Below are positions 1-13,540 of a stretch of 64,000 bases of DNA, one piece after another (positions within the stretch are counted from its first letter, which is position 1; each line of letters opens with the position of its first letter). Origin of the DNA: Burkholderiales bacterium (lineage in GTDB: Bacteria > Pseudomonadota > Gammaproteobacteria > Burkholderiales > SG8-41). The stretch lies in NCBI GenBank assembly GCA_030684405.1, contig JAUXYA010000005.1:62001-126000 (forward strand), read 5' to 3'. The translations under genes were made by a program, and so were the position numbers. A model generated the notes under the pieces. That model had not been told where the DNA came from. It searched no databases and worked only from the letters and a program-made list of their open reading frames with translations.

Positions 1-1
1 G

Positions 2-166
2 CCCTATCCGACGCTGCACCTGCTGCGTGAGTCCAGTGTCGAACGCGCGGTGGCCGCGCATCCCGATACCGACCGCATCTACCGCGACAACATCGAGACG
101 CTGCGTCGCCTCGGGCACGAGGGCTGGGGCCGGCTCGACATCGGCCGGCCTGCTCCAAAAAAATAG
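2..166 (+). CDS. C-terminal end of an unrecognised protein (5' truncated by window)
   Basis: The window opens inside a reading frame that runs 54 codons to a TAG at 164-166. The visible tail is charged and probably helical, with segments such as VAAHPDTDRIYRDN and LRRLGHEGW. I do not recognise the family from this fragment and give no function. It points towards the thioredoxin-reductase-like gene, which is convergent and ends only 6 bp away. There is no room for a separate terminator between them. Confidence 0.5.
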   Translation, partial: PYPTLHLLRESSVERAVAAHPDTDRIYRDNIETLRRLGHEGWGRLDIGRPAPKK

Positions 167-172
167 CAGTCC

Positions 173-1078
173 TTACTTCAGGCGCGCCGCCACGGCTTCG
201 GCGGCCTGTTTCGCATCCCGCATCGCATCCTCGAGGCTGCCGCCGCAGCCGCTGCGCACGGCACCGATGGCCCAGAGTCCAGGCAGGGCGGTTTCAAGCG
301 TGACGTCGGTGAGCAGGCGGCCTGTCGCGTCGCGCTCGACGGTATCAGGTACGAAAGCGGCGTTGGGTTCGAGCCCGATGTAGGCGAAGACGCCGGCCAC
401 CGCGAGTTCCTCGCTGCCAGCGGTGCGCTTGACGAGGATCTTCTCGACCATCTGCCCGCCGAGTATTGCCTCGACGCGGCTGCCGAAGCGCAGCTCGATC
501 TTCGCATTGGCCTGCACCTGCTCGACGAAGCGCGGCTGCGCGCGAAAGGCGCTGCCACGGTGGAGCAGCAGCACCTTGGCGCAGTAGTGCGTCAGCACAT
601 TGGCTTCCTGCAGCGCCGAGTCGCCGCCGCCGACGACAGCGACCGTTTCGTTCTGGAACATCGGCCCGTCGCAGTCGGCGCATTTCGACACGCCGCGGCC
701 TTCGAACTCCGCTTCTCCGGGCACGCCCAGCATTTTCAGCTTTGCACCGCTGGCGACGATGACCTGGCGCGCGTGATAGCTGCCGGTTTCGGTTTTGACC
801 GTGAAGCCGCCTTCGGCGGCGGCCACCGCGCTGACTGGCTCCTGGATGCTGGTCACGCCGGCGTCGGCGTTCGCGCCGATCATCTCCGAGGCAAAGGCGG
901 CGCCGCCGGCTTCGCCACCGGCCGGCGCGGGATCGAGTTCATTGACGTTGAGGATCAGGCCGCCGAACAGCTGCTGCTCGAAGCTGGCGGCGCGGATGCC
1001 TTTTTTTGCGAGCAGGCCGGCGGCAGTGAGTCCGGCGATGCCTTCGCCGATGATGATGACGTCAAAGGAATTGGACAT
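173..1078 (-). CDS. Thioredoxin reductase-like FAD/NAD(P)H disulfide oxidoreductase
   Basis: A 301-residue protein of thioredoxin-reductase size that should pass electrons from NAD(P)H through FAD to a redox disulfide in the cytoplasm. An N-terminal dinucleotide fold carries GEGIAG (residues 11-16). The CxxC active site reads CADC at residues 133-136, and a second nucleotide-binding GGGDSA follows near 150. The tail (LWAIGAVRSGCGGSLEDAM) is the usual FAD-contacting region. It starts 15 bp after selB on the same strand, so it is probably co-transcribed with selA and selB. A role in reducing selenium compounds or selenoproteins is attractive but is only inferred from context. The active site is the plain Cys-Cys form. 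It could be a paralogue of the housekeeping TrxB. Confidence 0.85.
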   Translation of the reverse strand: MSNSFDVIIIGEGIAGLTAAGLLAKKGIRAASFEQQLFGGLILNVNELDPAPAGGEAGGAAFASEMIGANADAGVTSIQEPVSAVAAAEGGFTVKTETGSYHARQVIVASGAKLKMLGVPGEAEFEGRGVSKCADCDGPMFQNETVAVVGGGDSALQEANVLTHYCAKVLLLHRGSAFRAQPRFVEQVQANAKIELRFGSRVEAILGGQMVEKILVKRTAGSEELAVAGVFAYIGLEPNAAFVPDTVERDATGRLLTDVTLETALPGLWAIGAVRSGCGGSLEDAMRDAKQAAEAVAARLK

Positions 1079-1093
1079 GGTTCTCTTTCTGTT

Positions 1094-3112
1094 TCAGTAA
1101 CGTCTGTTGCGGAAAGGGGGGCGCTGCTGCGGCTTGCCGGCTTGCGGCTTCTGCGCCTGTGTTTTTGCGGCAGTGCCCGGCGGAGGTGGCGGCGCTGGAT
1201 CGGCGGGGCCGAGGATCGGTACGAAATCCTTGCGCATCTTGCGCGCGTCGCCGATGCGCTGGGTGATGGCGAGACCGTCGAGTGTTTCGAGGATTTCAAT
1301 TGCCAGCGTGCGGCCGATGCCGGTGGCGTCGCGGTACTGCGCGGCGGTGAACTGGCCGTTGGGCTGCTTCTCAGCGACCGCTTGTGCGGTGGCGGAGAGG
1401 ACGGCCATCGTTGCCTTCAGATAGAAGCGGTCGGTGCCGACGCGATGAACGTTGCCGGCCTTCATCTGGCGGTAGAGGAAATCCTTGAGGATCGCGTCCT
1501 TCAGATTCAGCTGCGGCGCGAGTTCACGCAGCGTCGGCGGATTGAAGCCGGCAGCGGCCAGCGCCGGCTGCACGGTCTCCCACAACCGCGTATCCGCGCT
1601 GTTGGCGGTGGTGTCATGGCCGGGTTTGCGCGCCAGCGCACCGTGGATTTCGAAGCGTTTGTGCTCGGTGAGCAGGCGCAGCGCGTGGCCGAAGGCATCG
1701 GCATCGAGTTCCGGTGCGAGGCTTTTGTGCAGGGTGTCGATTTCGAGGCCTGGCGCCTGCGGCTGTGCCGTGTGGAAAGCCAGGACCTGCTTCACCACTG
1801 CATTGTGCAGGGCATCGAGCCGGGCGTGGGTGATCGCGATGCGGCGTTCCTTCCCCAGAGGCAGCAGGCCCGCGTCGCTGCAGGCAATTGCCACGATTTC
1901 CGGCAGCAGGTTGAAGGCGACTTCGAAATGCGCGAGGTCGACCGGCCGCTTCGGATTTGCCGCGAGCGCGGCCAGAGCGGTGTCATGGTCCGCAGATTCA
2001 AGAGCGACGAGCGCGGCGTCCCGAGCCTTGCCGCGGCGCTCCGGCGGCAAGGGATCAATGACGGCGCCGCCGCCGATGGTGCGTGCGGCTGACTGGTCGC
2101 GCAGAATGAAGCGGTCGCCGTGCAGCGCCGACAGCGGTTCGTCGAGCACCAGCCTGGCGATGCCACTGCCGCCCGGGGGCAAGGCTTCACCGCGTCGCAG
2201 CGATACGCGCGCGGTGACGTCGGCGGTGGCTAGGTGGAGGTGCACTGGCATCCAGTGTTTCAGCGGCCGGCTTTCGCCAGGCAGTACCGACAGGCGCACG
2301 TCGAGGCGCTGCGTCGGGCGGTGGATGGCCGCGGCCATTACCCAGTCGCCGCGGCGCACCGATTCGACGTCGGCGCCGGTGAGGTTCAGCGCACAGCGCT
2401 CTCCGGCCTGCGCCTGCTCGGCGGGCTGGCCATGGATCTGGATGCTGCGTATCCGGACCTCGCGTCCTGCGGGCGAAATCACCAACCGGTCGCCGGTTTT
2501 CACACTGCCGTTGAATACCGTGCCGGTTACCACGGTGCCGCTGCCGGCAATGCTGAAGGCACGGTCGATGGCGTAGCGTAGGTGCTGGCCACTGGCGCTG
2601 CGTTGTCCGCGTTCGGCTGCTTCGCGCAGCAGCAGGTCTTTCAGTTCGGCGATGCCGGCGCCGCTGACCGCAGATACTGGCAGCAGCGGGGCAGCGGCCA
2701 GCAGCGTCGGCGCGAGCAGTGCCTGCACCTGCGCGCGCACTTCCTCGACGCGTGCGGCATCGACGCGATCGGTCTTGGTAATGGCCACGGCGCCTCGGGG
2801 GATGCGCAACAGGTCGAGGATCTGCAGGTGTTCGACGGTCTGCGGCATCACGCCGTCATCGGCAGCGACGATCAGCAGCGCGAAGTCGATGCCGGAGACG
2901 CCGGCCAGCATGTTGCGGATAAAACGTTCGTGGCCGGGTACGTCAACAAATCCGATCAGCCCGCCCTGCGGCAGCGGCAGGTAGGCGAAACCGAGGTCGA
3001 TGGAAATGCCGCGCGCCTTCTCCTCGGGCAGGCGATCAGTGTCAGTGCCGGTGAGCGTTCTCACCAGCAGCGTCTTGCCGTGGTCGATGTGGCCTGCAGT
3101 GGCGACGATCAT
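1094..3112 (-). CDS. selB: Selenocysteine-specific translation elongation factor SelB
   Basis: A 672-residue GTPase that delivers Sec-tRNA(Sec) to the ribosome at UGA codons marked by a SECIS hairpin. The N-terminus is an EF-Tu-like G domain with GHIDHGKT (residues 7-14), [13 protein letters not shown] and TKTD. Beta-barrel domains follow ([13 protein letters not shown]), then a long C-terminal winged-helix region that in this family binds the SECIS RNA. I chose the ATG at 3112 because the protein then begins [14 protein letters not shown] as usual; a longer frame upstream runs through a repeat. It lies downstream of selA, 149 bp away, with an inverted repeat between them. Its presence means UGA is read as selenocysteine here, which explains the three interrupted genes in this window. 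Confidence 0.97.
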
Positions 3113-3133
3113 TTTTTCAAAGTCAAAAGCGTT

Positions 3134-3264
3134 TAGCCACAGAGGACACAGAGGAAAACCAAAAACCGGCAACCGTCACCCTAGAAGGAGGTCCCTGGGG
3201 GGCAGGCGAACGTGTTTTTCGAATTTCTCTGTGCTCTCTGTGCTCTCTGTGTCCTCTGTGGCTA
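3134..3264. repeat. Inverted repeat between selA and selB
   Basis: A 20-base arm (TAGCCACAGAGGACACAGAG, 3134-3153) recurs exactly in reverse complement at 3245-3264. The right arm overlaps the selA stop codon. Extra CTCTGTG units precede it at 3225-3250. The pair frames about 90 bp and could fold as a long hairpin between the two genes. This CCACAGAGGACACAGAG unit looks like a dispersed intergenic repeat. Any effect on selB expression is inference. Confidence 0.7.
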
Positions 3265-4668
3265 GGTTTTAAAGGTTTTCAGTTTTTCCAGTTGCAGCAC
3301 GAACTCTTCCTCATGGTCGAGGCAGCGCAAGTCGAGTTTCAGCGCGTTGTCACGGATGTGGCCGATCACCGGCACCGGCAGCGCGCGCAGCGCCGCCGCC
3401 AGTTTGTTGAGGTTGCCTTTTTTTCCAACTGGCGTGATTGCGAGGCCGCTGCTGGGCAGTGAGTCGACGGGCAGGGCGCCGCTGCCAATCTGCGATTTGC
3501 AGTCGCAGACCTCGACGCGCCAGTTCTCGCCCAGCGTCGCGGCCAGCACAGGCTGCACGCGCGCTGCCTGCGCGGCGATGTCTTTCGGTTTGCGTGTCAG
3601 CAGGCGCAGCGCCGGCAGTTCTTCGCGCAGTTTTTCCGGATGCAGGTAGAGCCGCAGCACGGCGTCCAGTGCAGTCAGCGTCAGCTTGTCGAGGCGCAGC
3701 GCGCGTTTCATCGGATTTTTTGCAATGCGTGTCATCAGGTCCTTGCGTCCCACCAGCAGGCCGGCCTGGGGACCGCCCAGCAGCTTGTCGCCGCTGAAGG
3801 TGACGACGTCGGCGCCGTGGGCGAGCGTTTCGCGCGGTGTCGGTTCATGCGGCAAGCCGTAGTCCTCAAGGTTGACCAGGGTGCCACTGCCGAGGTCGAC
3901 GATGAAGGGCAACTGATGCTCGTGCGCGAGTTTTGCAAGTTCCGGCTCGGGCACTGCGGCGGTAAAGCCCTGCACGACATAATTGCTGGTGTGCACTTTC
4001 ATGATCGCCGCGGTTCGCGGCGTGATCGCCTCGGCGAAATCCTTCAGGTGGGTGCGGTTGGTGGTGCCGACCTCGACCAGCTTTACGCCGGCGCGCGCCA
4101 TGATGTCGGGGATGCGGAAGGCGCCGCCGATCTCGATCAGTTCGCCGCGCGAGACCAGCACTTCGCGCCTCAGCGCCAGCGTGTTCAGCGCGAGGTAGAC
4201 CGCGGCGGCATTGTTGTTGACGGCGACAGCCTTGTCGCCGCCGGTGAGTTCCTTCAGCCAGCGCTCGACATGGCTGTCGCGTTCGCCGCGGGCGCCACCG
4301 TCAAGATCGAATTCGAGGTTGACCGGGCGCGTCATCGCTGACGCGACTGCGCGCGCTGCGCTTTCTGGCATCACTGCACGGCCAAGATTGGTGTGCAGCA
4401 CGGTGCCGGTGAGGTTGAATACCGGCTTCAACGACGGTGCTGATGAACGCTCCAGCGCCGTGGCGCAAGACTGCAGGAAATGGTTTTCTTCGTAGGGAGA
4501 AGCTTCTGCGTCCGTCAGCCGTTCGCGCTCGGCATCGAGCGCCCGGCGCAGCGCTTCGGTTACGCGGCTGCGACCATACGCGGAAATGAGCTCTGCGACA
4601 GCGGGGCTGCCGAGCAGGCGATCCAGCGAGGGCAACGCGCGACGCGCGGCTGCGGCGGTATTCACCAT
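3262..4668 (-). CDS. selA: L-seryl-tRNA(Sec) selenium transferase SelA
   Basis: A 468-residue PLP enzyme that converts Ser-tRNA(Sec) to Sec-tRNA(Sec) using selenophosphate. Family landmarks are the N-terminal SLDRLLGSP segment, the [18 protein letters not shown] block, [17 protein letters not shown], and the PLP lysine region [14 protein letters not shown]. The length is normal for bacterial SelA. It is the first gene of the selA-selB-thioredoxin reductase run. selD (selenophosphate synthase) and selC (tRNA-Sec) are not next to it or elsewhere in the window. The stop codon lies inside one arm of an inverted repeat. Confidence 0.97.
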
Positions 4669-5050
4669 AGCCGGTGGGGACTGCAGCAGCCGTGGCTGGA
4701 CGTGCGGAACATGGAATCCGGAGGGATGTGCGACAGATATCGCCGGGGCGCCAGTTTAGCCCAACTCGCTGCACGGGTGCTATGCTGACCGCTGACCGCA
4801 CTGTGTTCGCATTGCGGAGGCATTGGCCGGTCACCGAGCGGACAGGAGCCGCTCCGGAATTCCGGGTGTCAGCCGCTGGTGCATGTTGCGCCATCGCGGG
4901 GCGTCCGCGAGACTCGCTGCCGGCTGCCTTGCCCGGATGCGGTGATTTATTGCAGTGGCATGTTTTTTGCGTTTTTCGGGTGCTGCCACCTGCAGTGCGC
5001 AGGATTTCCGGCTGCGACAGGACAGTCATGACCAATCGAGAGAGGATGCA
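4669..5050. other. Intergenic region between divergent selA and a Bug-family gene
   Basis: 382 bp without a supported gene. It must hold the promoters for selA (minus) and the binding-protein gene (plus). I looked for a selenocysteine tRNA (long extra arm, TCA anticodon) and saw none. Frames crossing the region have no family signal. Confidence 0.5.
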
Positions 5051-6022
5051 ATGAACAATCTGAAAATCCGCTGCGGCGCAGCCCTGGCACTGGTGTTGTT
5101 TGCGGGTGCTGCTGTCGCCCAATCCTGGCCCGCACGTCCGGTGCGGCTGATCAGCCCTTTTGCACCGGGTGGCGGTGCGGACATCACGTCGCGCGCGGTG
5201 GCGCAGAAGCTGGCAACATCGTTCGGGCAGCAGGTGATTGTCGACAACCGCGGCGGTGCCGGCGGCATGCTCGGCGTGGACCTGGCCGCGAAATCGCCGC
5301 CCGACGGCTACACGCTGGTGATGGGCACCATTGGTCCGATTGCGATCAATCCCAGCCTGCTCAGCAAGATGCCCTACGATCCGATCAGGGACCTGGCGCC
5401 GATTTCACAGGCCGCGGTGGCGGTGAACGTGCTGGTGGTGCATCCCTCGCTGCCGGTCAAATCGGTGAAGGAATTCATCGCGCTGGCGAAATCGCGTCCC
5501 AATGATCTCAACTACGGGTCGTCCGGATCGGGCGCCGCCGACCACCTTGCCGGCGAGTTGTTCAATGCGATGGTCGGGGTCAAGATGGCCCACATCGCGT
5601 ACAAGGGCGGTGCGCCGGCGATGCTGGATCTGGTTGGTGGCAACGTGCAGCTGGTGTTCTCGACCCTGTCGACCGCGACCGCGGCCATCGAGAGCAACAG
5701 GGTCAGGGCGCTGGCGGTTGCCGGCAGCCAGCGTTTCGCGGGCATGCCCGAGCTGCCGACGATGTCGGAAGCGGGCCTGAAGGGTTTCGAGGTCAACAAC
5801 TGGTATGGCCTGTTTGCGCCGGCCGGCACGTCGAAGGACATCATCGCCCGTGTCAGTGCCGATGCCGGCAAGGCGCTGGCGATGGCCGACGTGAAAAAGC
5901 GCCTGATGGACGCCGGCATCATCGCGGTGTCCAGTTCACCGGAGGCTTTTGCCGCCTATATCCGCGCCGAAACCGACAAGTGGGGCAAGGTCATCCGCAC
6001 GGCGAATATCAAGGCCGACTGA
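5051..6022 (+). CDS. Tripartite tricarboxylate transporter-type substrate-binding protein (Bug family)
   Basis: A 323-residue periplasmic binding protein of the TctC/Bug family that captures carboxylates or small amides for uptake. A signal peptide is visible (MNNLKIRC, then LALVLFAGAAVAQ), followed by the signature WPARPVRLISPFAPGGGAD and the VDNRGGAGG and NYGSSGSG ligand-loop motifs. I chose the ATG at 5051, preceded by GAGAGGA, because it begins the signal peptide; the frame opens earlier. No membrane subunits (TctA/TctB) are adjacent, as is common for the expanded Bug family of betaproteobacteria. The ligand is unknown. The convergent neighbour is an amidase, which hints at an amide substrate, but that is weak. 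Confidence 0.93.
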   Translation: MNNLKIRCGAALALVLFAGAAVAQSWPARPVRLISPFAPGGGADITSRAVAQKLATSFGQQVIVDNRGGAGGMLGVDLAAKSPPDGYTLVMGTIGPIAINPSLLSKMPYDPIRDLAPISQAAVAVNVLVVHPSLPVKSVKEFIALAKSRPNDLNYGSSGSGAADHLAGELFNAMVGVKMAHIAYKGGAPAMLDLVGGNVQLVFSTLSTATAAIESNRVRALAVAGSQRFAGMPELPTMSEAGLKGFEVNNWYGLFAPAGTSKDIIARVSADAGKALAMADVKKRLMDAGIIAVSSSPEAFAAYIRAETDKWGKVIRTANIKAD

Positions 6023-6025
6023 ATC

Positions 6026-7315
6026 TCAGGTGCAGGCGCGCTGCACCCAGCGCGCCGCCATCATCAGCCTGCGGTCGTCGTCGCGGCGGGCGATCAGCTG
6101 TGCGCCGACCGGCAGGCCGTTGGGACCGGTGAACAGCGGCAGGGTCATCGCCGGCACATGCATCGTGGTCCAGATTGCGCAGAAAGAGGCGTTGCCGGTG
6201 GCCTTCAGTCCCAGCGGCGCTTCCCCGGCGACTGCGGGGGTCAGCAGGATGTCGTAGCCGGCAAACAGGTCATCCAGTTTGAGCCGGCAGCGTTCGGCGA
6301 AGGCGCGGGCCTCGCGATAGGTTTGCTCGCTGCAGTCGAGGCCGTTGCGGATGCGGTTGTTGCGCAGCGTCTCGCTGATCATGTCCCAGTGGCGATCGAT
6401 TTCCCAGGCACGGTTGCGCGCGAACTCGAAACTCGAGATCCAGCGGTGCGCATCTTCTATGCGCGTGAATTCCGGGGGCAATTCGACGTCGCTGACCGCG
6501 GCGCCGGCCCGTGCCAGTCCTGATGCGCAGTTTTCAAGCAGGCGCTTTGTTTCGGGCTCGCACTGCTCCCACATCGGCGAGCGGCAGAACCCGATGCGCG
6601 GCGGGCTGCCGGCGTCGGCCGGCAGTGCTTCCGGGGTGATGCCCATCAGCACGTCCCGGTAGAGCGCGATGTCGTCGATGGAGCGCGCGATCAGGCCCAG
6701 GGTGTCGAGCGAGCTCGAGGCTTCCATGACGCCGGCGCAGCGCAGGTCGCCCCAGGTCGGGCGGTAGCCGACACAGCCGCAGAATGCGGCGGGGCGGATC
6801 GTCGATGCAGTGGTCTGTGTCCCGATGGCCAAGGGCACCATTTCCGCGCCGACTGCGGCGCCCGATCCGCTGGAGGAACCGCCGGGGGTGCGCCGCGGAT
6901 CGAAGGGGTTGCGTGTCTTGCCCGGGAAAAAGTTCGCGAACTCAGTGGTGACGGTTTTGCCCATGATCAGTCCGCCTGCCCGCCGGGTCAGTGCCACGCA
7001 GGCGGCATCGAGCCGCGGCTGCCGGCCCTTGTGGATCGGCGTGCCGTACTCGGTGGGCATGTCGTCGGTATCGATGATGTCCTTGATGCCGACCGGAACG
7101 CCCTGCAGTGGCCCGGTGCTGCCGCGGCGGTCGAGGGCGCGGGCCTGTTCCAGCACGCGCTGCGGATCGAGGTAATGCCAGGCTTCAACCTGCGGTTCGC
7201 GTTCGGCGATATGCGCGAGGCAGGCTTCGGCGACGGCGATGGCCGTTGTTTTTCCGGCAGCGATGGCGCGGACGATTTCGGCGGCGGTCATCTGATGCAG
7301 CTTGCGAGTGGACAT
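6026..7315 (-). CDS. Amidase-signature family enzyme
   Basis: A 429-residue amidohydrolase of the amidase-signature family, which hydrolyses C-N bonds with a Ser-cisSer-Lys triad. Visible landmarks are the lysine block GVPVGIKDIIDT, the serine-rich core GGSSSGSGAA, and the nucleophile loop TQTTASTIRPAAFCG. The usual TGGS is here TTAS, with the serine kept. The length is typical of stand-alone members rather than of GatA. Substrate unknown; annotation as an aspartyl-tRNA amidotransferase subunit would be wrong because no gatB or gatC is nearby. It converges with the Bug-family gene with 3 bp between them and begins downstream of the terminator of the Sec-glutaredoxin gene. Confidence 0.9.
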   Translation of the reverse strand: MSTRKLHQMTAAEIVRAIAAGKTTAIAVAEACLAHIAEREPQVEAWHYLDPQRVLEQARALDRRGSTGPLQGVPVGIKDIIDTDDMPTEYGTPIHKGRQPRLDAACVALTRRAGGLIMGKTVTTEFANFFPGKTRNPFDPRRTPGGSSSGSGAAVGAEMVPLAIGTQTTASTIRPAAFCGCVGYRPTWGDLRCAGVMEASSSLDTLGLIARSIDDIALYRDVLMGITPEALPADAGSPPRIGFCRSPMWEQCEPETKRLLENCASGLARAGAAVSDVELPPEFTRIEDAHRWISSFEFARNRAWEIDRHWDMISETLRNNRIRNGLDCSEQTYREARAFAERCRLKLDDLFAGYDILLTPAVAGEAPLGLKATGNASFCAIWTTMHVPAMTLPLFTGPNGLPVGAQLIARRDDDRRLMMAARWVQRACT

Positions 7316-7384
7316 GGGCTTGATCGTGTGATGAATGGAGTGAGGGTCGTTCCGCTTCGGACAATTATCGCCCGCAGGTTCAAC

Positions 7385-7410
7385 AAAAAACGGCGCCCGC
7401 AGGCGCCGTT
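7385..7410 (-). terminator. Rho-independent terminator after the Sec-glutaredoxin gene
   Basis: The minus strand reads a perfect 8-bp stem (ACGGCGCC/GGCGCCGT, 4-nt loop, 7390-7409) followed by TTTTTT. It lies 26 bp past the stop at 7436 and before the amidase start. Confidence 0.85.
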
Positions 7411-7413
7411 AAT

Positions 7414-7430
7414 ATAAGTATTTGATTTTA
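7414..7430 (+). repeat. A+T-rich 17-mer motif, copy 1
   Basis: ATAAGTATTTGATTTTA, just past the stop codon of the minus-strand Sec-glutaredoxin gene. The same 17-mer is exact at 41353-41369 and 16/17 at 26023-26039 (reverse). It stands out against the G+C-rich background. Function unknown. Confidence 0.6.
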
Positions 7431-7435
7431 AACAA

Positions 7436-8206
7436 TTATTCCCACAGCCGCTCGGGCAAAGGCAAGCCCGCCAGCTGCTCCGGCGTCAGCGGCCGGTCGG
7501 GTGTGATGCCGATCCGCTCCAGTACTGCGGCGAGTTGCCGGCCATGCTGCGCGCTGTGCCAGGTCGAACGCTCGTAAAGCATGTGCAGCGGCTGCATGCC
7601 GAAGAAGGTCTTGACCTTCTGCTGGCAGGATTTGTCCTCGAGCTTGTCCCACCAGTTTTCGAGGCGCGCGATGACGGTGTCGCCGTAACGCGCGATTTCC
7701 TCGCCGGTCATGAAGCTGCCGTCCTTGGGGGGCACGTTGGCGAGCTGCACCGAGTATTCGACGCCGTCCTCCATGGATTCAAGGAAGGCCTCGGCGATGC
7801 GGAAAATGTGGTGGCACATCAGCCGGATCGAGCGGTCGCGGTTGGGGATCACGCGCTCGAGCAACTGCGCATCGGGTATCTGGCGCATCAGCCGCTGTGC
7901 GGCCTGCAGCACCATGACCCAGCGCTTGATCAGTTCTTCCGGTGGCAGCGGCTTGTGGCCGGTGCCCTGAAGGCCGACGAATTCAGCGACGTCCTCGAGG
8001 TTCTGCCCGAACACGAACTGTTCGCCCTTGGCGACGACCGGCACGTTGCGCACACCGAACTTGAGCAGGCGTTCACGGCCTTCAGGGTCGTTCAGTACGT
8101 CGATGGCGATGAAATCGATTTTTTTCCGCGAAAGAAACTCTTTCGCCCGGAGACAACTGCTTCACCCGGGTTGGGTGAACAGGATGAACTGTTCGTTGGC
8201 GCCCAT
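7436..8206 (-). CDS. Selenoprotein: glutaredoxin domain (UxxC) fused to a DinB-like domain
   Basis: Read with UGA as selenocysteine, this is one 256-residue protein. It begins MGANEQFILFTQPG, then U15-S-S-C18, then a glutaredoxin fold (LRAKEFLSRKKIDF, and the cis-proline loop VRNVPVV that binds glutathione). The UGA at 8164-8162 sits exactly where glutaredoxins have the first active-site cysteine. Residues from about 85 on form a helical DinB-like domain with candidate metal histidines (CHHIFRIAEAF and ERSTWHSAQH). A strong SECIS-like hairpin follows the UGA. No other stop interrupts the frame, and selA and selB are 4 kb away. The frame could instead be taken as a DinB-like gene starting at 8053, but that would leave an unexplained conserved glutaredoxin half upstream. 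The divergent neighbour is a glutathione transferase. Confidence 0.9.
8128..8146 (-). promoter_or_regulatory. Bacterial SECIS-like hairpin in the glutaredoxin selenoprotein
   Basis: The mRNA reads GCGAAAG-AGUUU-CUUUCGC: a perfect 7-bp stem with a 5-nt loop whose second base is G. There are 22 nt between the UGA and the loop. This fits the bacterial SECIS rule (small loop with an early G, roughly 16-37 nt after UGA). The stem lies inside coding sequence. Confidence 0.8.
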
Positions 8207-8280
8207 GATTGATCCTTTGCCGGCGGTTGAGGTGAGCGTCGAGACTAACGTCGTGCGCCGCCGGGCGTCAAGGTTTGCGG

Positions 8281-8289
8281 TGCTATAAT
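8281..8289 (+). promoter_or_regulatory. Extended -10 promoter for the GST gene
   Basis: TGCTATAAT lies 31 bp before the GST start. It has a perfect -10 hexamer with the TGn extension and no clear -35, as extended -10 promoters allow. It sits in the gap between the GST and the divergent selenoprotein gene. Confidence 0.6.
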
Positions 8290-8320
8290 CCGCGCGCTTT
8301 TTACCCTGCAAGAAATCCAT

Positions 8321-8929
8321 ATGATGAAGCTGATCGGGACGGCTACCAGTCCCTACACCCGCAAGGTGCGCGTCGTGCTGGCCGAGAAACGCATGGAATG
8401 CGAGTTCTCCATAGACACTCCGAACACCGAAGGCAGCACGGTCGCGCAGTTCAACCCGCTGGGCAAGATACCGGTGCTGGTGCTCGATGACGAGAGCACG
8501 CTTTTCGATTCGCGCGTGATCGCCGAATACCTCGATAATGCAAGCCCGGGCAACCGGCTGATTCCGGAGGAAAAGCGGCCGCGCATCCAGATGCGGCGCT
8601 GGGAGGCGCTGGCCGATGGCTGCACCGATGCAGCGGTTGCCGTGGTTATGGAAAAACGCCGCCCCGCAGCGCATCAGTCGCCGGAATGGATTTCCCGCCA
8701 GCAGGGGAAGGTTGACCGTGCGCTGCAGACGATGGCTGACGATCTCGCGGCAAAAAACTGGTGTACCGGGGATTTCTTCTCGCTCGCCGACATCGCAGTC
8801 GGCTGCTGTCTGGGGTGGATGGAGCTGCGGCTGCCGGATCTGCCCTGGCGCCGCAACCATCCGAATCTCGCCCGGCTCGCCGACAAGCTGGCGCAGCGCC
8901 AATCATTCAAGGATACCGTGCCGGCCTGA
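8321..8929 (+). CDS. Glutathione S-transferase family protein
   Basis: A 202-residue cytosolic GST-fold protein. The N-terminal thioredoxin-like half (LIGTATSPYTRKVRVVLAEK, then the NPLGKIPVLVLDDESTLFDSRVIAEYLD glutathione-binding block) is followed by the all-helical C-terminal half with FSLADIAVGCCLGWMELR, the helix-capping region of the family. The enzymatic substrate is unknown; YibF-like GSTs are close in form. Two ATGs in tandem (8321 and 8324) could start it. It is transcribed away from the glutaredoxin selenoprotein, so the two glutathione-linked genes share a control region. Confidence 0.92.
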   Translation: MMKLIGTATSPYTRKVRVVLAEKRMECEFSIDTPNTEGSTVAQFNPLGKIPVLVLDDESTLFDSRVIAEYLDNASPGNRLIPEEKRPRIQMRRWEALADGCTDAAVAVVMEKRRPAAHQSPEWISRQQGKVDRALQTMADDLAAKNWCTGDFFSLADIAVGCCLGWMELRLPDLPWRRNHPNLARLADKLAQRQSFKDTVPA

Positions 8930-8952
8930 GCGGGGCCGGCTCACGCTGCCTA

Positions 8953-10098
8953 TCAGGCCTTGCCCACCGTACCGGGCGGGCAGGGGGCATCGCGCGGCGT
9001 GATCTGAGCCGGACGCGCCGATTCTATGATGCCGCCGCCGATGCACACCCGGCTTTCGTAAATGACGACGGATTGCCCGGGCGTCACTGCCCACTGGTTT
9101 TCAGCGAATTCAACGACGCAGTGCGTGAACGTCGACTTTGACAGCGAACAGGCCGCGTCCTTCTGTCGGTAGCGGGTTTTCGCGCCATACACCCATTGCG
9201 TGTGCGGTGGTTCGCCACTGATCCAGTTCAGGTTGACGGCAGTCAGCTCGTCGGACAGCAGCATGGAGTGTTCGTGACCCTGTACCACGACCAGACGGTT
9301 ATTTGCCATGTCCTTGCGTGCGACATACCAAGCCTCGCCATCGCCGTTGCGGGTGCCGCCGATGCCCAGGCCCTGGCGCTGACCCAGCGTGTAGAACATC
9401 AATCCCATGTGTTTGCCGACCTTGACGCCCTCCGGCGTCACGATGTCGCCAGGGTTGGCCGGCAGGTAGCGGTTGAGGAACTCGCGGAAGGGGCGTTCGC
9501 CGATGAAACAGATCCCGGTGGAGTCCTTCTTGTCGTGGTTGGCCAGTCCCTCGCGGCGGGCGATTTCACGCACGTCGCGTTTGTACAGCTTGCCCAGGGG
9601 GAACATGGTTTTGGCGAGCTGCTGCTGGTTAAGGCGGTAAAGGAAGTAGCTCTGGTCCTTGCCGCCGTCCTCGGCCTTGAGCAGCTGGTGGAGGCCGTCG
9701 ACTTCACGCACTTGCGCGTAATGCCCGGTGGCGATCCATTCGGCACCGAGGCTCATCGCGTGGTCGAGGAAACATTTGAACTTGATCTCGGCATTGCACA
9801 GGACGTCGGGATTGGGCGTGCGTCCGGCCTGGTACTCTCTGAGAAACTCGCTGAACACGCGGTCTTTGTATTCGGTGCTGAAGTTGACGGCTTCGATTTC
9901 GATGCCGATGCGGTCGGCGACAGCAACTGCATCGACCAGATCCTGGCGGGAGCTGCAGTGTTCGTCCGTGTCGTCCTCCTCCCAGTTTTTCATGAACAGG
10001 CCGGTGACCTCGTGGCCCTGCTGCTTGAGCAGCAAGGCGGCGACGGCGGAATCGACACCGCCTGACAGGCCGACGACTATTTTCTGTTTGCGTGTCAT
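8953..10098 (-). CDS. mnmA: tRNA-specific 2-thiouridylase MnmA
   Basis: A 381-residue ATP-dependent enzyme that puts sulfur on the wobble uridine-34 of Lys, Glu and Gln tRNAs. The PP-loop motif GLSGGVDS is at residues 9-16. The catalytic cysteines lie in [12 protein letters not shown] and [12 protein letters not shown], and GHYAQV and [15 protein letters not shown] are also family blocks. It follows nudJ by 4 bp, and the order rluE-nudJ-mnmA is the same as in E. coli. The thiouridine it makes is the substrate of selenouridine synthase in selenium-using bacteria, but no such gene is seen here. Confidence 0.97.
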
Positions 10099-10102
10099 GG
10101 TT

Positions 10103-10561
10103 TTACGGATGGTGATGCAGCAGTTGCAGCGGGTAGCGCCGGCCTGCGAGGTAGTCCTCGATGCACTGTATCAGCAACGGGCTGCGGTGTATCTCGCGGC
10201 AGGCGCGTATTTCCGCCGCTGGCATCCACACTGCGCGCAGGATGCCGGTATCGAGCGGGCGGTCCTGCGGTTCGGAGATTTCACCGGTGAAGGCGAAACG
10301 CAGGTAGGTCACGGGTGAACCGGGCTTGCGGTGCTGGTAGACGCCGACCAGAGCGGTTGGCCTGAAGCTGCGCGCGGATTCTTCGAGGGTTTCGCGGACC
10401 ACGGCTTCGATCAGCGATTCACCTTCCTCAAGGTGGCCGGCGGGCTGATTGTAGCGGATGCCTTCGGCGGTCTGTTCTTCGACGAGGAGGAAGGCCCCGT
10501 CATGTTCGACCACCGCGGCAACGGTCACATTGGGTTTCCACTGTGCTGGTTCCTCTGTCAT
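10103..10561 (-). CDS. nudJ: Nudix hydrolase, NudJ-like
   Basis: A 152-residue Nudix-fold pyrophosphatase. The Nudix box is visible as [20 protein letters not shown], with the RExxEE metal-binding core. Upstream is [19 protein letters not shown], and further on a YLRFAFTGE strand. E. coli NudJ, which acts on nucleoside phosphates and the thiamine precursor HMP-PP, sits in the same place beside mnmA and rluE, so the symbol rests on sequence plus gene order. It is followed 4 bp later by mnmA, implying one transcript. Confidence 0.88.
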
Positions 10562-10593
10562 CCCGGCATTTTATCGCCGCTAGCCGAAGACGT

Positions 10594-10620
10594 AAAAAAG
10601 GCAGGGCACGAGGCCCTGCC
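10594..10620 (-). terminator. Rho-independent terminator after the 47-residue gene
   Basis: On the minus strand a GGCAGGGC/GCCCTGCC 8-bp stem (10600-10620) is followed by TTTTTT (10599-10594). It lies about 30 bp past the stop of the small gene at 10651 and isolates it from nudJ. Confidence 0.85.
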
Positions 10621-10650
10621 TTCCCGCGGACACTGAATGCCCGAACGGTT

Positions 10651-10794
10651 CTACTTCTTGCAGTCTTTATGGTTCTTGTTCTTGGCATCCTTGCAGTCTA
10701 CTTTTGCAGCTTCTTTTTTCTCGGCGGCGAATACCGGAGCGGCAGAAACCGTTGCAAAGACGGCAGCACATGCGATTGCGAGAAACTTTTTCAT
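10651..10794 (-). CDS. Small exported Lys/Cys-containing protein, 47 aa
   Basis: A 47-residue frame with its own leader and terminator. It begins MKKFLAIACAAVFATVSAAPVFAA, a clean signal peptide. The mature part is about 23 residues, rich in Lys and Asp, with two cysteines in VDCKDAKNKN and HKDCKK. A purine-rich GGGAGG lies just before the ATG. It resembles the next small gene (10960-11118) in layout: MxK start, AAVFA hydrophobic core, an AxAFAAE-like cleavage region and a lysine-rich tail. I do not recognise a family. The Cys pair could form a disulfide in the periplasm. Confidence 0.7.
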   Translation of the reverse strand: MKKFLAIACAAVFATVSAAPVFAAEKKEAAKVDCKDAKNKNHKDCKK

Positions 10795-10910
10795 GTTTCC
10801 TCCCTTGGTGGACAAATCGCGCCCGATTTCGGTACGCGGCTCATTGCGAGCGCGGCTACATTAGCGCATGCCCATGTCATTTACAACGGAAATTTCCGGA
10901 GGGCGGGCAA

Positions 10911-10940
10911 TAAAAAAGGCAGGGCTTGCGCCCCGCCTTT
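10911..10940 (-). terminator. Rho-independent terminator after the 52-residue gene
   Basis: On the minus strand a GGCGGGGC/GCCCTGCC-type stem, with one G-U or mismatch, is followed by a run of T (TTTTTTA). It lies 20 bp beyond the TAA at 10960. Confidence 0.8.
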
Positions 10941-10959
10941 TACGAGCAAAAACGGACGA

Positions 10960-11118
10960 TTACTTCTTGTCAGCTTTTTTCTCGTCTTTCTTGTCAGCCT
11001 TGGCCGGGGCCTTTTTCTCTTCTTTTTTCTCTTCTTTCTTGGCTTCAGCAGCGAAGGCCGGGGCAACCGAAGCGGCGGCGAAAACGGCGGCGATGATGGC
11101 GGCAAACAGTTTGTTCAT
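10960..11118 (-). CDS. Small exported Lys/Glu-rich protein, 52 aa
   Basis: A 52-residue frame starting MNKLFAAIIAAVFAAASVAP with a signal-peptide cleavage site near AFAAEA. The mature part is almost only Lys, Glu, Ala and Asp (KKEEKKEEKKAPAKADKK). It has no cysteine, unlike its 47-residue neighbour, but the gene plan is the same and both have their own terminator. Low-complexity tails like this occur in envelope or metal-binding proteins, but no function can be assigned. Paired palindromes lie upstream. Confidence 0.7.
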   Translation of the reverse strand: MNKLFAAIIAAVFAAASVAPAFAAEAKKEEKKEEKKAPAKADKKDEKKADKK

Positions 11119-11137
11119 GATTCCCTCAATTAATTAG

Positions 11138-11185
11138 TGGTTGATCAACCAGGCCTTGCGGCCTTTGACCGAAATAGTCGGTCAA
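11138..11185 (-). promoter_or_regulatory. Two palindromes upstream of the 52-residue gene
   Basis: TGGTTGATCAACCA (11138-11151) is a perfect 14-bp palindrome 20 bp before the ATG. TTGACCGA-AATAG-TCGGTCAA (11165-11185) is a perfect 8-bp inverted repeat just beyond it. Either may be an operator or a leader hairpin. The regulator is unknown. Confidence 0.5.
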
Positions 11186-11331
11186 GCCGAAATAACGGGC
11201 GTGCTCGGCACTGGTTGACAGTTTCGCGAAAGATTTGTCGGTAGAAAATAAATATAAAAACAAGGGCATGCGACGGAACGCCGATAAATTCGATTTGCTG
11301 CGGCGCAGAGATTGACGTTGCATAAAATTGA

Positions 11332-11871
11332 CTACGACACCCTTTCCCAGGTTCCCGGCGCAATACCGGCAACCGTCCACGAACCGACACTGAACCGGAT
11401 CAGGCGCAAGGTTGGAAAACCTGCGGCGGCCGTCATCCGCCGTACCTGTCGGTTGCGGCCTTCGCGCAAGGTAAGGCGCAGCCAAGCGGTCGGGATGGTC
11501 TGGCGCGAACGGATCGGGGGCACCCGCGGCCACAGCCAATCCGGTTCGGACACCAGTTGGGCTTCCGCGGGTTGGGCACGGAAGTCGCTCAGGCGGATTC
11601 CCCTGCGCAGGAGTTCCAGCACCGCGTCATCCGGCGTTCCCTCGACCTGCGCGAAATAGGTTTTTGGCAGCTTGTGCCGCGGATCGGTAATGGCATGCTG
11701 CAGGGCGCCGTCGCCGGTCAGCACAACCAAGCCCTCGCTGTCGGTGTCCAGCCGGCCTGCCGGGTAGACGCCGGGTTCGTCGATGAAATCTTTCAGCGTG
11801 CGATGGCTGCCCGACGGGCTGAACTGGCAGATCACGCCATAAGGCTTGTTGAGCAAGATGACGTCCGGCAT
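11332..11871 (-). CDS. rluE: rRNA large-subunit pseudouridine synthase, RluE-like
   Basis: A 179-residue pseudouridine synthase of the RsuA/RluB/E/F family, expected to modify 23S rRNA (U2457 for RluE). It opens with ILLNKPYGVICQFSP. The catalytic aspartate motif is YPAGRLDTDSEGLVVLTGDG, and the C-terminal block is LREGRNRQVRRMTAAAGFPTLRLIR. There is no N-terminal S4 domain, as in E. coli RluE. The neighbourhood (nudJ and mnmA nearby on the same strand) matches E. coli, although the two small genes are inserted here. Confidence 0.92.
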   Translation of the reverse strand: MPDVILLNKPYGVICQFSPSGSHRTLKDFIDEPGVYPAGRLDTDSEGLVVLTGDGALQHAITDPRHKLPKTYFAQVEGTPDDAVLELLRRGIRLSDFRAQPAEAQLVSEPDWLWPRVPPIRSRQTIPTAWLRLTLREGRNRQVRRMTAAAGFPTLRLIRFSVGSWTVAGIAPGTWERVS

Positions 11872-11914
11872 GCCCGGATTCTACGTGACGGCCGGACGCC
11901 GTTCCTGCGGTGCT

Positions 11915-13540
11915 TCAGGCGGCGATGCCGGACTCCGCGGCCTGTTCCAGCCGGTCGTAGCCGGGCAGGGTCAGGAATTCGACATAGTCATCGCTGGCGG
12001 TGATTTCGTCGAACAGTTTAGCGGCTTCTCCATAGCGTCCGGCACTCCACGCCCCTTCGCCGAGTTCGCGGCGGACCCGGGCCAGTTCCTCCGGCAGCAT
12101 CCGGCGGAACATGTCGCGGGTGATCTTGCGGCCATCATCCAGCACGCCCTTGGGGCTGCGCATCCACTGCCAGATCTGCGAACGCGAGATTTCCGCGGTG
12201 GCGGCGTCTTCCATCAGGTTGTAAACCGGCACGCAGCCGTTACCGGCGAGCCAGGCGCCGATGTACTGAATGCCGACGCTGATGTTGTTGCGCAGTCCCG
12301 CTTCGGTGATCGGGGCTTCGGGCCTGAAATCGAGCAGGTCTCTGGCGCTGACGTTGACGTCCGGGCGCTGCCGGTTGACCTGGTTGGGGCCCGGCATATG
12401 TTGGTCGAAGATTTCCCTGGCGATGCCGACCAGCCCCGGATGCGCGACCCAAGTGCCGTCGCAGCCGTCGCTGGCTTCGCGCTCCTTGTCGGCGCGCACC
12501 TTGGCCAGCGCGGCTTCGTTGGCAGCAGGGTCGTTCTTGATCGGAATTTGCGCTGCCATGCCGCCCATCGCGAAGGCCTTGCGCTTGTGGCAGGTCTTGA
12601 CCAGCAACAGGGCATAGGCACGCATGAACGGGGCGGTCATCGTGACCTGGCTGCGGTCGGCGAGGCAGAATTCCCTGTTCGAGCGGAATTTCTTGATGCA
12701 GCTGAAAATGTAATCCCAGCGACCGATGTTGAGGCCGACGCAATGTTCGCGCAGTTCGTAGAGGATTTCGTCCATCTCGAAGGCGGCGAGCACAGTCTCG
12801 ATCAGCACGGTCGTCTTGATCGTGCCCTGCGCTACACCGAGCTGCTGTTGCGCCGTTACAAAAATGTCGTTCCACAGCCGCGCCTCAAGGTGGCTTTCCA
12901 TTTTCGGCAGGTAGAAGTAAGGGCCGCTGCCGCGCGCGAGGGCCTCCCTGGCGTTGTGGAAAAAATACAGCGCGAAATCGAAAATCGCGCCCGACACCGG
13001 CGCGCCGTCGACCTGCATGTGGTTTTCCATCAGGTGCCAGCCGCGCGGGCGCACCAGCAGCGTCGCGGGTTTTTCGGCCAGTTTGTAATGCTTGCCCTCG
13101 GGACTGCGGAAAGTAATCGTGCGGCGTATTGCATCGCGCAGGTTGATCTGGCCTTCGATCATGTTGGCCCAGGTCGGCGCATTCGAGTCCTCGAAGTCGG
13201 CCATGAACACGTTGGCACCGCAGTTCAGTGCGTTGATTACCATTTTGCGGTCGGTCGGCCCGGTGATTTCGACACGACGGTCCTGCAGGTCGGCGGGGAC
13301 AGGTCCGATGGTCCAGGCGCCGTCGCGGATGGCCTTCGTTTCAGGCAGGAAGTCGGGCAGGGATCCGGCGTCGAATGTGGCTTGGCGGCCGGCTCGCCGT
13401 TGCATGAGCTCCCTGCGCCGCATTTCGAATTTGCGCGCAAGTCCGGCGACAAAGGCCAGCGCTTCGGGTGTAAGGATGCTGTCGTAGCCGGTGCCAGTTG
13501 CGCCGTTCAGGGTGATGCCTTCGGGAAGGAGCTGGGCCAT
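11915..13540 (-). CDS. aceB: Malate synthase A
   Basis: A 541-residue malate synthase of the A (short) type that condenses glyoxylate and acetyl-CoA to malate in the glyoxylate bypass. Family blocks seen are [36 protein letters not shown], and [20 protein letters not shown] in the C-terminal half. [10 protein letters not shown] includes the histidine of the glyoxylate site. I chose the ATG at 13540 ([13 protein letters not shown]), because the upstream extension in this frame crosses an A+T-rich inverted repeat that looks like its operator. No isocitrate lyase is in the window. The upstream gene on the same strand is an unrecognised 458-residue protein. Confidence 0.95.

Follow-up and report, generated by a model that had tools for sequence, protein, structure and literature searches.

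A probable selenocysteine-containing glutaredoxin-DinB fusion encoded near selA and selB in a Burkholderiales bacterium

Introduction

Glutaredoxins with selenocysteine (Sec) at the first position of the active site (Grx, UxxC) are known from the Sargasso Sea and from later inventories, as far as the main texts of these sources describe them (PMC1088965, PMC13188914). Sec glutaredoxins appear in the main texts of the Sargasso Sea and GOS papers, and DinB does not. Enzymes of the DinB/STL superfamily such as BstA are described, in excerpts of the relevant papers, as metal-dependent thiol transferases in which the metal is held by three histidines, two of them at positions i and i+4 (PMC5815605, PMC10950700).

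Here we describe a gene that joins these two kinds of domain, found in a 64,000-nucleotide stretch of DNA from a Burkholderiales bacterium (the whole stretch is referred to below as the window; Table 1). An earlier note on the same DNA had proposed a selenocysteine glutaredoxin fused to a DinB domain, and that proposal is supported, as far as comparison of sequences can support it, by the pairing of UGA and Cys among homologues, the selenocysteine insertion sequence (SECIS), the Sec machinery of the genome, both domains and the histidines. The stop-containing gene very probably makes a selenium-containing enzyme.

Domain Architecture and Predicted Metal Site

The fusion gene extends from an ATG at 8206-8204 to a TAA at 7438-7436 and contains a single in-frame TGA (8164-8162). 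When this TGA is read as U, the product is a protein of 256 aa with U15 within TQPGUSSC (longer context TQPGUSSCLRAKEFLS). Translation therefore bears out the earlier placement of the UGA at the first cysteine of a glutaredoxin motif (PG-U-SSC). The frame was also said to continue through the glutaredoxin into a DinB-like domain, and both Pfam models indeed score above their curated cut-offs, at 50.1 bits against 22.9 for Glutaredoxin (E 3e-13) and 28.8 bits against 24.8 for DinB_2 (E 2e-6). At E <= 0.001, Glutaredoxin was found in 30/30 aligned members of the family and DinB_2 in 24/30.

Residue conservation was read from an alignment of 105 of the 106 proteins in hand before the last additions (L115, cut by a contig end, is excluded here yet counted among the 122 Sec forms below). 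All of these proteins have either U or C at position 15, and C18, K22, and P56 are invariant. We take the C/UxxC site, K22 (four residues after the second Cys), and P56 of the cis-Pro loop to be the glutathione site of glutaredoxins. The candidate metal histidines pointed out earlier are mostly conserved as well (Table 1), and together they make up the predicted three-histidine site of the DinB/STL superfamily, with a spacing of 84 and 4 compared to 93 and 4 in the B. subtilis BstA as given in excerpts of its description (PMC5815605). The first histidine of HxxxH is absent in five distant members that keep the UGA (L148-L151 and L205), and the second is also absent in four of them; the metal site is not retained throughout the whole family.

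A structure model for which 30 homologues were used is confident (mean pLDDT 94.5, pTM 0.90). Its helical half has the DinB fold, with the DinB/YfiT protein DR0053 (6iz2) as the best Foldseek match (E 6e-4, TM 0.84 on the target), while the first half matched the glutaredoxin 3ic4 (E 1.2e-3); both E-values are modest. A profile search of solved structures also matched the glutaredoxin half, and the few chains that it placed on the helical half, none of them a DinB enzyme, we took as chance matches.

Table 1. Positions in the window of the fusion gene, its parts and its neighbors.
Feature	Position	Strand	Details
Sec-containing glutaredoxin-DinB fusion gene (putative selenoprotein)	7436..8206	-	256 codons; TGA (Sec) is codon 15; TAA stop
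In-frame UGA (predicted Sec15)	8162..8164	-	First position of the UxxC active site
Glutaredoxin domain, PF00462	8012..8185	-	Residues 8-65; holds U15, C18, K22, P56
DinB_2 domain, PF12867	7532..7912	-	Residues 99-225
His133, predicted metal triad residue 1	7808..7810	-	105/105 aligned proteins
HxxxH (His217 and His221), predicted triad residues 2 and 3	7544..7558	-	H217 in 101/105, H221 in 102/105
Bacterial SECIS hairpin GCGAAAG-AGUUU-CUUUCGC	8128..8146	-	Conserved core 8145-8129
Intrinsic terminator-like hairpin	7389..7410	-	9 bp, T tail; directly 3' of the fusion gene
selA, selenocysteine synthase	3262..4668	-	
selB, Sec-specific elongation factor	1094..3172	-	
Divergent glutathione-transferase-like gene	8321..8929	+	39% identical to E. 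coli YibF
MnmA gene	8953-10098		Ends in TGA

Sec and Cys Forms and Probable Readthrough of the UGA

Homologues fall into two forms that differ at one codon. UGA occupies this codon in 122 of 131 unique motif-bearing homologues and Cys in the other 9, where the 131 are what remains of 136 proteins after removal of L159, whose start was wrong and in which no motif was found, and of four repeat entries for the same gene. As membership was decided by the active-site motif, the set is uninformative on homologues that lost it. All but one of the 131 are at least 240 aa long, and the remaining one is truncated by a contig end. Relatives ending at the UGA codon with no DinB domain downstream were the case that the earlier note had set against its own proposal, and no intact homologue among the 131 has that form. 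Partial or broken extra copies do exist, for example G047:C215:4012-4479, which holds residues 5-111 and 210-256 only, perhaps through a deletion. On a tree of 81 representatives, two switches between Sec and Cys suffice, although its grouping of L192 (Cys) with L154 (Sec) sits on long branches and may be false.

Were the UGA a true stop, the locus would encode a 14-residue leader followed by a separate protein translated from GTG 8053, and a 205-aa open reading frame does begin at that position. However, the stretch from U+13 to U+36 precedes this first alternative start, and its pN/pS of 0.36 (from 43 non-independent comparisons against the window gene) indicates that it is translated. Moreover, the invariant C18 and K22 lie upstream of the alternative start, and the Cys homologues contain the same fusion with no stop at all. 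We rejected a separate downstream gene on the strength of the constraint before GTG 8053, and termination at this UGA is very improbable. An altered genetic code was also rejected, given that TGA ends the neighboring MnmA gene and 30/136 homologue genes; UGA is an ordinary stop elsewhere, and the code is therefore not altered.

The SECIS Hairpin

Downstream of the UGA lies a hairpin of seven perfect pairs closed by a 5-nt loop. The earlier note had described it correctly in both respects, but the 22 nt that it gave as the distance to the hairpin is the distance from the UGA to the loop, and the stem starts at 15 nt. A 17-nt core, CGAAAGAGTTTCTTTCG, is present exactly in 115/122 Sec forms, there always 16 nt after the UGA, and in 0/9 Cys forms. 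Among the 65 Sec forms that are less than 80% alike in DNA, codons are nearly fixed at K22 (62/65), E23 (65/65), L25 (64/65), and S26 (65/65), whereas other conserved residues vary in codon; in later parts of the same genes CTT accounts for only 8% of Leu codons and AAA for 40% of Lys codons. The core is also exact in the distant paralogues L148, L151, and L205 and one base off in the other two of that group (L148-L151 and L205), of which L148 is 30% and L151 26% identical to the window protein. The conservation of the hairpin across relatives is far beyond chance. A core so nearly invariant, kept at about 26-30% protein identity, offers a clean means of probing recognition by SelB in bacteria other than E. 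coli.

Covariation is almost nil, as the stem hardly varies: a G-U pair replaces A-U in four sequences, and the loop differs in two. Conservation does not extend to the seventh pair, which lies outside the core, and L154, a distant Sec form, has a different hairpin after its UGA.

The published model for bacterial SECIS elements (bSECIS) sets, in the excerpts of its description, a loop pattern of N1-G-U-N-N2, a spacing of 16-37, and an energy (MFE) limit of -7.5 (PMC13188914). The AGUUU loop fits the pattern as given there, and the window hairpin lies within the four published limits, namely those on loop, stem, spacing (22 nt), and energy (-12.0). The energy limit is non-discriminating in this family. 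On a 39-nt stretch it is reached by 67/122 Sec forms and 6/9 Cys forms, leaving 55/122 Sec forms short of it, and on 51 nt by 107/122 and 8/9, respectively. Compared to synonymous recodings, the folding energy in the window is unremarkable (p 0.17; 17% of recodings fold as well). The mean z of the 122 Sec forms is -1.2, with p <= 0.05 in 22%, and that of the 9 Cys forms is -0.36, with p <= 0.05 in 0/9. Hence, we call the hairpin a SECIS because of its nucleotide conservation, its fixed position, and the contrast between Sec and Cys forms, for which folding energy alone would be insufficient. Nothing scored above the Rfam gathering scores in positions 1-12000 of the window.

Selenocysteine Machinery and Other Candidate Selenoproteins

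The window's genome has the machinery that readthrough would need, with tRNA-Sec, SelA, SelB, and SelD all over their cut-offs; tRNA-Sec scores 75.9 bits and lies on the same contig, 12 kb beyond the left end of the window. Seventy-nine of 149 relatives searched whole have a match to the fusion, 72 of them with a TGA copy by our reading of the match table. Among these 149, a strong tRNA-Sec (one above a 66-bit line set by eye, below which matches resemble other tRNAs) is found in 66/72 genomes with the UGA form versus 23/77 others, a contrast that relatedness inflates, as it does those that follow. When the window's own family is set aside, the contrast is 5/6 with the UGA form versus 17/69 without. 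For the whole set with further genomes added, a strong tRNA-Sec is found in 76/83 Sec-form and 3/9 Cys-form genomes. Seven Sec-form genomes, six of the 149 and one of those added, have no strong tRNA-Sec; their assemblies comprise about 120 to 700 contigs, and we infer that the gene falls in missing sequence. Three of nine Cys-form genomes keep tRNA-Sec, so a missing machinery does not account for every loss of Sec.

The selD gene of the window's genome (L073:1402-2460, minus strand) contains a single TGA in frame, within GGG-U-GCKL, and is itself apparently a selenoprotein gene. The same genome (G000) has five matches to the UGSC family (L209-L213, on contigs C14, C17, C36, and C35), with one in-frame TGA each. 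Counting these matches, SelD, and the fusion, the selenoproteome would have at least 7 members. The fusion could conceivably be the glutathione-side partner of such UGSC-family selenoproteins, handing electrons to them; in favor are the five matches in this genome and the occurrence of UGSC genes within the flanks of 17/110 loci of 5 kb or more. Several of those 17 are near relatives, however, and none was found nearby in the remaining 93 (one query sequence) or among the scanned neighbors of the window copy; furthermore, 13/18 matches are in the opposite orientation. We regard a partnership of this kind as improbable. Of the 18 UGSC matches near a glutaredoxin-DinB gene (L077, L032, L033, L108, L113, L140, and others), 16 have a TGA that falls within UGAC or UGSC. 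In several of these, a near-identical GC-rich stretch that could form a hairpin comes next.

Gene Neighborhood

Linkage of the fusion to selA and selB, on which the earlier note was silent, is in our analysis the most telling feature of its context. When the count is restricted to loci whose downstream sequence spans 4.9 kb or more, selA follows the fusion gene in the same orientation in 37/42 loci of the window's kin (group A, families f1 and f3), in 3/3 loci each of f6 and f13, and in 0/37 of other groups, although many loci are near relatives and the counts are not independent. We assigned the groups manually, using motifs and the tree; adding L110 and L111, set apart by us though the tree puts them among the window's kin, changes the figure for group A to 37/44. 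The f6 and f13 copies are on tree branches separate from group A. In f13 the SelA match starts 11-13 nt past the last codon in 8/9 loci (53 nt in the ninth), a gap that suggests one transcript.

Upstream of the selA-linked groups, mnmA is found in 51/57 loci with at least 2 kb of upstream DNA and the divergent glutathione-transferase gene in 30/57, with 0/3 for both in f13. In E. coli K-12, the gene for YibF, to which the latter is related, adjoins selA. Between the fusion gene and selA, the window has an amidase gene and a TctC gene. The terminator-like hairpin stands directly 3' of the fusion gene, which in this genome is thus probably transcribed alone; the argument is one of position and not of score, as the terminator scan found 1 compared to a shuffle average of 1.6.

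The linkage makes the fusion a candidate for an accessory role in the Sec pathway. It could act in glutathione-dependent selenium reduction or handover for SelD, for instance from selenodiglutathione, or be a sensor of selenium status whose own UGA couples sel expression to Sec supply. In favor of such a role in selenium metabolism are the presence of selA downstream of copies on separate branches of the tree and of none in the other groups, the tight spacing in f13, and the frequent flanking by MnmA and the YibF-like transferase. Against it, paralogues in the same genomes lie in unrelated clusters, 6/9 Cys-form genomes lack a strong tRNA-Sec, so that a role in the Sec pathway would be senseless there, and the terminator-like hairpin parts the window gene from the genes downstream. 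On balance we hold a role in selenium metabolism to be unlikely, though the likeliest of the alternatives weighed here. The more particular proposal that the selA-linked copy is an unrecognized Sec-system accessory, made by its own UGA and SECIS into a gauge of selenium status or a reductase for selenium delivery, at the sel locus of many uncultured Burkholderiales that form a large group, is slightly more doubtful still.

Paralogues at other sites have many kinds of neighbor, which for some include tandem CoA-transferase III, cupin, and TctC genes. The neighbors of one paralogue group are mixed, with 62 Pfam families among 64 neighbors, and indicate no single substrate. At L121, L128, L131, L134, and L136, the paralogue directly adjoins a gene for a tandem CoA-transferase III of about 850-870 aa (truncated in L131), and L128 and L131 additionally have a small ChrR-type cupin gene beside it. 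TctC (tricarboxylate receptor) genes are near the family in 70/135 loci, including the window (4955-6022), and may simply be abundant in these genomes.

Distribution

With a profile at E <= 1e-15, matches were found in 36/399 genomes of an order sample, in 2/369 of a class sample (the window's genome itself and G267, a Cys form), and in 2/398 of a phylum sample (the window's genome itself and G636, a UGA form). Within the phylum as sampled, the family looks centered on this order (Burkholderiales/Betaproteobacteria), with rare outliers, and the fusion is common to many uncultured relatives. The Sec form of G636 (L154 / L184), a genome of one 5.4-Mb contig in the same phylum, lies outside the window's class, and tRNA-Sec is present there. 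That this genome is closed suggests that the family has some cultured carriers. Close homologues at L019, L022, and L027 are carried by public MAGs titled Bordetella parapertussis and resemble those of other Betaproteobacteria MAGs; the species labels look doubtful.

Proposed Function

Glutaredoxins use glutathione. We consider it probable that the gene encodes a selenoprotein by means of UGA and SECIS, and that the product is a glutathione-linked selenoenzyme in which a Sec15/Cys18 redox site works with a metal-holding DinB domain. By comparison with homologues, the UGA would be translated through with the SECIS at 8146-8128 and the genome's own SelB and tRNA-Sec. The product would be a glutaredoxin (U15-S-S-C18) joined to a helical domain resembling DinB/S-transferases, with a divalent metal predicted at His133, His217, and His221. 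The DinB domain may hold and activate glutathione or an electrophilic or oxidized substrate at the metal; the Sec15 selenolate could then attack the resulting Se/S- or disulfide-bonded species, and Cys18 or glutathione would resolve the selenenyl intermediate. An enzyme of this kind might be a glutathione-dependent reductase or thioltransferase for small molecules as opposed to a general protein-disulfide reductase. Copies beside selA and selB, as in the window, look like the core copy, and paralogues by CoA-transferase, cupin, and TctC genes probably belong to catabolic pathways. The earlier suggestion of a glutathione-linked enzyme of new type is plausible as an inference.

Comparison With Known Systems

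We regard the fusion as a new selenoprotein architecture, absent from the catalogues that we checked. No model cut-off in NCBIfam (June 2026) is passed by the window protein. The inventory of a 2026 review, covering 119 families and subfamilies, lists no such fusion in its Table 1, and the word DinB is absent from its main text. A full-text literature search for selenoprotein or selenocysteine together with DinB returned no paper that is apparently on such a protein. The earlier view that the fusion is undescribed as a selenoprotein agrees with the literature and NCBIfam checks, and as far as these searches show it would be the first selenoprotein of the DinB superfamily. The selenoproteome appears to gain a family whose members are truncated at the UGA when read with the standard code, and to extend to the DinB/S-transferase-like superfamily. 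Because Sec and Cys versions of a selenium-dependent glutathione enzyme fused to a metal site would both occur naturally in related bacteria, the question of why selenium is used here can be put to the test.

Four described groups come closest. The UXX-star and HUGP-GUXX-star families (NF041212, NF041211, NF045501) are also glutaredoxin-like (seleno)proteins, and one is a fusion; however, the partner domain differs, and the window protein (P0001) falls under every cut-off, with 41.5 bits against 66 for NF041212 and far below the others, on which grounds membership was rejected. Glutathione S-transferases share a thioredoxin-fold domain followed by an all-helical one, as well as the suggested link to glutathione, but the helical part here is a DinB domain with a predicted metal site, and superposition of the whole chain on glutathione transferases is poor (Foldseek, TM mostly about 0.3). 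With the DinB/STL enzymes (BstA-H, mycothiol transferase, YfiT) the window protein has in common the DinB fold, a predicted three-histidine site with HxxxH, and the Foldseek match to DR0053, whereas the members discussed in excerpts of PMC5815605 and PMC10950700 are without a glutaredoxin domain and without Sec. Finally, the Sec glutaredoxins share PF00462 and the UxxC site, in which Sec (here predicted) is the leading residue and the Cys is the resolving one. Those proteins are listed as glutaredoxins, with DinB unmentioned in the main texts searched, while in the family described here the fusion to DinB is regular and has a SECIS core of its own.
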